The position numbers were made by a program, and so were the translations under genes. A stretch of 64,000 bases of DNA, from assembly GCF_007830065.1 (NCBI RefSeq), contig NZ_VLKK01000008.1, forward strand, positions 62,001-126,000, read 5' to 3'. This document shows, piece after piece, positions 61,202 to 61,862 of the stretch. Numbering within the stretch: position 1 is the first letter of the stretch; every line of letters begins with the position of its first letter. This stretch comes from Sphingobium wenxiniae (GTDB lineage: Bacteria; Pseudomonadota; Alphaproteobacteria; Sphingomonadales; Sphingomonadaceae). The notes under the pieces are model-generated. The model was not told the DNA's origin. It did no database searches and saw only the letters and a program-made list of their open reading frames with translations.

Positions 61202-61747
61202 TTATTTCGGCGCGAGCACCATCAGCATCTGGCGGCCTTCCATGCGGGGATAGGCTTCGACCTTGGCGATCTCCGCCACATTTTCCGCGACGCGCTGGAG
61301 CAACTGCATACCGAGCTGCTGGTGCGACAATTCGCGGCCGCGGAAGCGCAGGGTGATCTTCACCTTGTCGCCTTCGCCGATGAAATCATGCACCTTCTTC
61401 ATCTTCGTATCATAGTCATGATCGTCGATGTTGGGACGCATCTTGATCTCTTTGAGTTCCTGCGTCCTCTGGGTCTTGCGGGCGATATTCGCCTTTTTCT
61501 GCGCTTCGTACTTGAACTTGCCGATGTCCAGAAACTTGCAGACCGGCGGATCGGCGGTCGGCGACACTTCGACCAGGTCCAGCCCGATCTCGTAAGCGCG
61601 CTCCATCGCCTCCTGCGTCAACATCACGCCCAGATTTTCGCCTTCGTCGTCGATCACCCGCACCTTGGGCACGGTGATGAACTCATTATAACGGGGACCG
61701 GACTTCGGCGGCGGCGCCATTGGACGGCGCATCATTGGGGGACGTAT
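61202..61747 (-). CDS. infC: Translation initiation factor IF-3, probable ATA start
   Basis: IF-3 with N domain (RYNEFITVPKVRVIDDEGEN), helical linker (KANIARKTQRTQELKEI) and C domain (KVKITLRFRGRELSHQQLG). It selects the correct initiator tRNA and start codon on the 30S subunit. The first ATG (61735) has no Shine-Dalgarno at normal distance. An in-frame ATA at 61747 has AGGAG eight bases upstream (61760-61756), so ATA is preferred, giving 181 residues (IRPP added). IF-3 genes are known to use rare start codons, such as AUU in E. coli, to control their own translation. It follows thrS. Confidence 0.9.
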   Translation of the reverse strand: MRPPMMRRPMAPPPKSGPRYNEFITVPKVRVIDDEGENLGVMLTQEAMERAYEIGLDLVEVSPTADPPVCKFLDIGKFKYEAQKKANIARKTQRTQELKEIKMRPNIDDHDYDTKMKKVHDFIGEGDKVKITLRFRGRELSHQQLGMQLLQRVAENVAEIAKVEAYPRMEGRQMLMVLAPK

Positions 61748-61862
61748 AGCGGTATCTCCTATGGTCGTTCAAAAATGTCGGTGGATGCGCCTTTAGCGCA
61801 AAGCCGAAAGGGGCGGCAAGTCCGCAGTTGCGGATTGCCGGTCCCCCTGTGGCATGGCAGCC

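Follow-up and report, generated by a model that had tools for sequence, protein, structure and literature searches.

Starts other than AUG are well known for infC, the gene coding for IF3, with AUU used in Escherichia coli, AUC in Streptomyces and AUA in Staphylococcus aureus, and Gvozdjak and Samanta (arXiv, 2020) reportedly name it among the genes that prefer such starts. The E. coli gene lies in the operon order thrS-infC-rpmI-rplT. Its AUU start serves autogenous control by IF3, as the accessible portion of PMC5472188 states with reference to Butler (1986/1987) and Sacerdot (1996); the same portion reports that the AUC start of Streptomyces infC is misannotated in most species. In S. aureus the AUA start has been mapped by Ribo-Ret, with feedback only proposed in the accessible sections of PMC13009471, and for Xanthomonas euvesicatoria the accessible part of PMC5559785 describes an ATT start with upstream peptides. 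Among the matches listed from the open-licence literature, no paper dealt with an AUA start of infC in Alphaproteobacteria, and a proteogenomics study of Ruegeria (PMC3305630) has neither "IF-3" nor "initiation factor" in its main text; we do not claim, however, that the class-wide pattern described below is unpublished.

We analyzed infC of Sphingobium wenxiniae within a stretch of DNA of 64,000 nucleotides (henceforth the window), in which the following features are relevant to its translation start:

60297-60968, opposite strand: msrA, the next clear gene downstream of infC, from the open reading frames
61202..61747, minus strand: infC with the ATA as first codon, 181 codons plus stop (TIGR00168)
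61730..61735, minus strand: in-frame ATG ATG (61735-61733 and 61732-61730); six Sphingobium records with NCBI names start at the first
61745..61747, minus strand: ATA, the proposed infC start codon, based on the site, its conservation and a codon-blind test
61756..61760, minus strand: AGGAG Shine-Dalgarno (SD) sequence, 8 nt (61755-61748) ahead of the ATA
61809..61847, minus strand: predicted hairpin between thrS and infC, conserved across the genus, where compensatory changes occur
61863..63863, minus strand: thrS, threonine--tRNA ligase, upstream of infC (TIGR00418), with a 115-nt gap to infC

The product is IF3, scoring 226.6 bits with TIGR00168 (cut-off 60) and having solved IF3 chains among its relatives. 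When only standard starts are allowed its open reading frame begins at 61735 and encodes 177 residues. The minus strand nevertheless reads AGGAG, 8 nt, and then ATA CGT CCC CCA ATG ATG CGC CGT CCA ATG in a single frame. An earlier note had proposed that the gene starts at this ATA, in frame at 61747 and 8 nt from the AGGAG at 61760-61756, that the nearest ATG is badly spaced and that annotation misses the first four residues. The first point is supported and the other two are borne out: the ATA lies where described, and 20 nt separate the AGGAG from the ATG at 61735, far outside the usual spacing. Eight database proteins were read over their whole length; six of them are Sphingobium records with NCBI names, and all six begin with MMRRP at that ATG and thus lack the four residues. 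Such shortening is not universal, as the GenBank record for infC on pSymB of Sinorhizobium meliloti already begins at an ATT.

The locus resembles that of E. coli in the gene itself, in the thrS upstream of it, in the SD-served AUH (AUA/AUC/AUU) start and in an IF3 with the aligned residues, but differs in using AUA rather than AUU, in the length of the gap after thrS (115 nt as against 3 nt) and in that feedback was demonstrated in E. coli and is proposed here by analogy. With S. aureus infC it shares both the gene and an AUA with a strong SD, and feedback in both is only proposed, as far as the accessible sections of PMC13009471 go; S. aureus, however, belongs to a distant phylum, and its start was mapped experimentally whereas ours is read from the sequence. 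Going by the accessible portions of PMC5472188 and PMC5559785, Streptomyces infC likewise has an AUH start missed by annotation, though there it is AUC in an actinobacterium, and X. euvesicatoria infC has an AUH start behind a wrongly annotated ATG, though there it is ATT, with peptide evidence, in a gammaproteobacterium. The ATA of the window is thus a further case of a known phenomenon, a sound correction of annotation and not a new mechanism.

The E. coli-type gene order is not found here, in that thrS lies upstream but msrA downstream, and the sole rplT of the genome lies on contig C6 while infC is on C8. The leader between thrS and infC folds with a z of -3.27 into the strong predicted hairpin at 61809-61847, which is followed by CCCCTTT; the consensus fold of this gap across 34 distinct genus sequences has 21 pairs, 8 of them with compensatory changes, and the hairpin may be either a terminator of thrS or a leader element of infC. 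Rfam at gathering scores returned one tRNA across the window. In Sphingomonas loci (L054, L057, L064) a TATAT-type box resembling a -10 element lies about 36 nt ahead of the infC start, which suggests that infC there has a promoter of its own and a short leader; across the family such a motif occurs 28-48 nt before the start in 33 of 90 loci.

Starts in relatives were called by weighing in-frame ATA, ATC, ATT, ATG, GTG, TTG and CTG codons by SD strength and spacing. Three outputs were changed on reading: L070, from a TTG far upstream to ATA, and L126 and L136, from a tie with an ATC of the core to ATA. As a positive control, the caller recovered the ATT in the E. coli-like locus L294, the same ATT at which RefSeq places E. 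coli infC. AGGAG-N8-ATA was called in all 24 genus loci. One genome of the genus (L009) matches Sphingobium fuliginis (L034) without a difference around infC, across the 1100 bases compared, in keeping with the genus being Sphingobium. Among 80 named Sphingomonadaceae loci the start is ATA in 63 and ATC in 17 (62 and 17, with one TTG, before the correction of L070), among 30 further family loci ATA in 24 and ATC in six, in 11 additional ones always ATA, and among six loci of the order ATA in five and ATC in one. The expectation of the earlier note that the ATA and the AGGAG would be kept at fixed spacing in relatives therefore holds in 24/24 genus loci and, if ATC is included, in 80/80 named Sphingomonadaceae, but its accompanying expectation of conserved IRPP codons does not strictly hold. 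In a table of 111 family loci, for which the best AUH codon of each locus was set as position 0, that codon is ATA in 88 and ATC in 23, each base of the AGGAG is 94-99% conserved at fixed spacing while most spacer bases are not, and codon 2 is mostly Arg but otherwise Ala or Pro. Being conditional on the chosen AUH codon, this table describes the site and does not prove it. The variability of codon 2 favors the reading as a start, since ATA or ATC persists while the codon following it changes. The conserved ATA also differs in behavior from Ile codons elsewhere in these genes, because within the family infC bodies only 6 of 1145 are ATA (ATC 1048, ATT 91). We dropped an argument from genome-wide rarity of ATA and used the infC bodies alone, given that ATA makes up 141/833 and 143/996 of the Ile codons in long open reading frames, a share far above that of the infC bodies and probably inflated by antisense frames. 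At this locus, then, a codon of the AUA/AUC/AUU set stands at the proper SD distance and is conserved among relatives.

Applied to 43 long open reading frames of the window, a control set that probably includes many antisense frames of a GC-rich genome, the caller reported ATA, ATC or ATT in seven and no clear SD in 26. Because the caller alone thus gives false positives, the argument is carried by the relatives and by a codon-blind test, in which the strongest SD-like site ahead of the IF3 core was located ignoring codons, after which the codons following it in frame were read. At aligned spacing 7 this yielded ATA in 23/23 distinct genus sequences and, among 69 named sequences, ATA in 52, ATC in 16 and ACA in one; the named set comprised 71 sequences, in two of which the strongest SD-like site fell at a different place, so that they are outside the 69, and the ACA case (L096) has a higher-scoring SD-like run further upstream. 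The codons immediately before and after the aligned position showed no comparable excess. In the class sample, ATA, ATC or ATT was found at spacing 5-8 in 101 of 128 distinct sequences (76 with ATA), and ATG, GTG or TTG in six of the 128. This test, together with the conservation among relatives, places the ATA site beyond chance.

These data bear directly on the possibility that translation begins at the ATG at 61735, as in the public records, the AGGAG then either working across 20 nt or having no part in it. An in-frame ATG ATG is indeed present, and the equivalent of the first ATG, at codon 5, is retained in 78 of the 111 family loci; yet it is absent in the other 33, where ATA or ATC remains, the distance of the AGGAG to the ATA is fixed while that to the ATG is far beyond the usual range, and there is no in-frame ATG, GTG or TTG at all before the IF3 core in 4/30 loci of the family sample, nor, in 59/130 class loci, anywhere from the upstream stop to the conserved core. 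We hence regard a start at the ATG as very improbable. A dual use of both sites, whereby the ATA would give a 181-residue form and the ATG at 61735 a minor 177-residue form free of IF3 control, accords with that ATG at codon 5 and with the second ATG that follows it, at codon 6, in 62/111 family loci, but the ATG has no SD and is not kept across the family, and we consider such an arrangement quite unlikely.

We also rejected the alternative that the TATACG overlapping the ATA serves as the -10 box of a promoter for a leaderless infC mRNA, which would begin at the ATG at 61735. The TATACG is common in the genus and lies about 7 nt ahead of the ATG in the window. However, the base preceding the ATA is T in 65 and C in 44 of the 111 family loci, the codon itself is ATC in 23, the ATG is missing in 33 and the AGGAG remains 94-99% conserved; moreover, a scan of 61650-62100 with a simple promoter consensus found nothing, and the TATAT-type box in Sphingomonas lies upstream of the SD (33/90 loci, 28-48 nt before the start). 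This makes a leaderless message extremely improbable.

Returning to the ATA as the start, initiation at AUA with fMet would give a protein beginning MRPPMMRRP. Plentiful IF3 would be expected to destabilize 30S complexes on the AUA and so to reduce translation of infC, which would increase again when IF3 is scarce; for E. coli infC, with its AUU, such control is established. Residues aligned to Tyr75, Arg99 and Arg131 of E. coli IF3, which we take to have a role in codon discrimination, are present in the IF3 of the window. The ATA could instead merely keep IF3 synthesis low without any feedback, and the accessible sections of PMC13009471 do report that non-canonical starts lower yield by themselves, three S. 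aureus genes in poor medium reaching about 10% of the AUG level. Yet a weak start could equally be reached by TTG or a poorer SD, whereas the sampled family has only ATA or ATC with a strong SD, and the AUU of the same gene in E. coli serves feedback according to the accessible portion of PMC5472188; we therefore think a start without feedback unlikely. By analogy, the likely purpose of the ATA start is self-control by IF3. In sum, we hold it highly probable that infC starts at the ATA at 61747, going by the sequence of the site, and that IF3, by the same analogy, would repress its own synthesis via this codon.

To place the locus in its class, we used a sample of Alphaproteobacteria in which infC was located in 141 of 143 genomes, 139 of which were read along with the window's own. 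A clear SD serves ATA in 85 of these 139, ATC in 23 (the call in L198 being doubtful), ATT in 12, TTG in five and GTG in two, with no clear SD in 12; including the window, an SD-served ATA, ATC or ATT is present in 121/140 genomes (86 with ATA) and not clear in 19/140. Agreement was poorest among the nine lowest-scoring genomes (4/9). In other classes of the phylum, represented by 70 of 128 mostly better-scoring genomes, the start is ATT in 33, ATC in 20, ATA in 16 and GTG in one, so that an SD-served AUH codon occurs in 69/70. Three loci (L203, L208, L237) encode long N-terminal extensions of IF3, starting 42-59 codons before the core as against 12-20 nearly everywhere else, and an SD-served ATT or ATC heads each extension. 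SD-served TTG starts of infC were seen in four small genomes of 0.8-1.4 Mb (G078, G171, G139 and G109), the TTG loci of small alphaproteobacterial genomes being L229, L230, L240 and L278, and possibly reflect a loss of IF3 feedback; the fifth TTG call (L195) is ambiguous, as an ATC lies two codons on.

The start codons were then mapped on a FastTree phylogeny of the IF3 core protein with 247 rows, 237 of them with a called state, ten loci being uncounted as unclear (L150, L195, L198, L199, L207, L212, L217, L219, L231 and L233); neither L271-L290 nor L002-L024, which nearly duplicate named loci, are part of it. The tree has 46 codon changes, an upper figure because IF3 alone makes a weak species tree, and two changes between AUH and TTG. 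When branches with support below 90 were collapsed and resolved most favorably, the count fell to a minimum of 25 changes within AUH and one to TTG; labels shuffled within AUH gave 40 changes on average and 34 at the lowest. We consider it fairly probable that AUA is the standing infC start across Alphaproteobacteria, with selection holding the codon within the IF3-rejected set of AUA, AUC and AUU, drift acting within that set, and feedback having been lost via TTG or GTG in a few, mainly reduced-genome, lineages.

With regard to annotation, infC on plasmid AZO_p6 of Azospirillum lipoferum 4B (L362, 371-440) is annotated at an ATG at 440, and an AGGAG-served ATA lies at 371, 23 codons upstream; the record is probably short at the N terminus. 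An essential factor hence gains four N-terminal residues in the Sphingobium records and apparently 23 in the Azospirillum plasmid copy. What is added here to the known non-AUG starts is the census across family and class and the pattern of codon change, the class-wide preference for AUA being a modest addition. A start codon that changes often and yet stays inside the IF3-rejected set offers an inexpensive way to test IF3 feedback through evolution, and if the proposed selection is real, purifying selection would be maintaining self-control by IF3 throughout the class, a trait that could be recognized from sequence alone.
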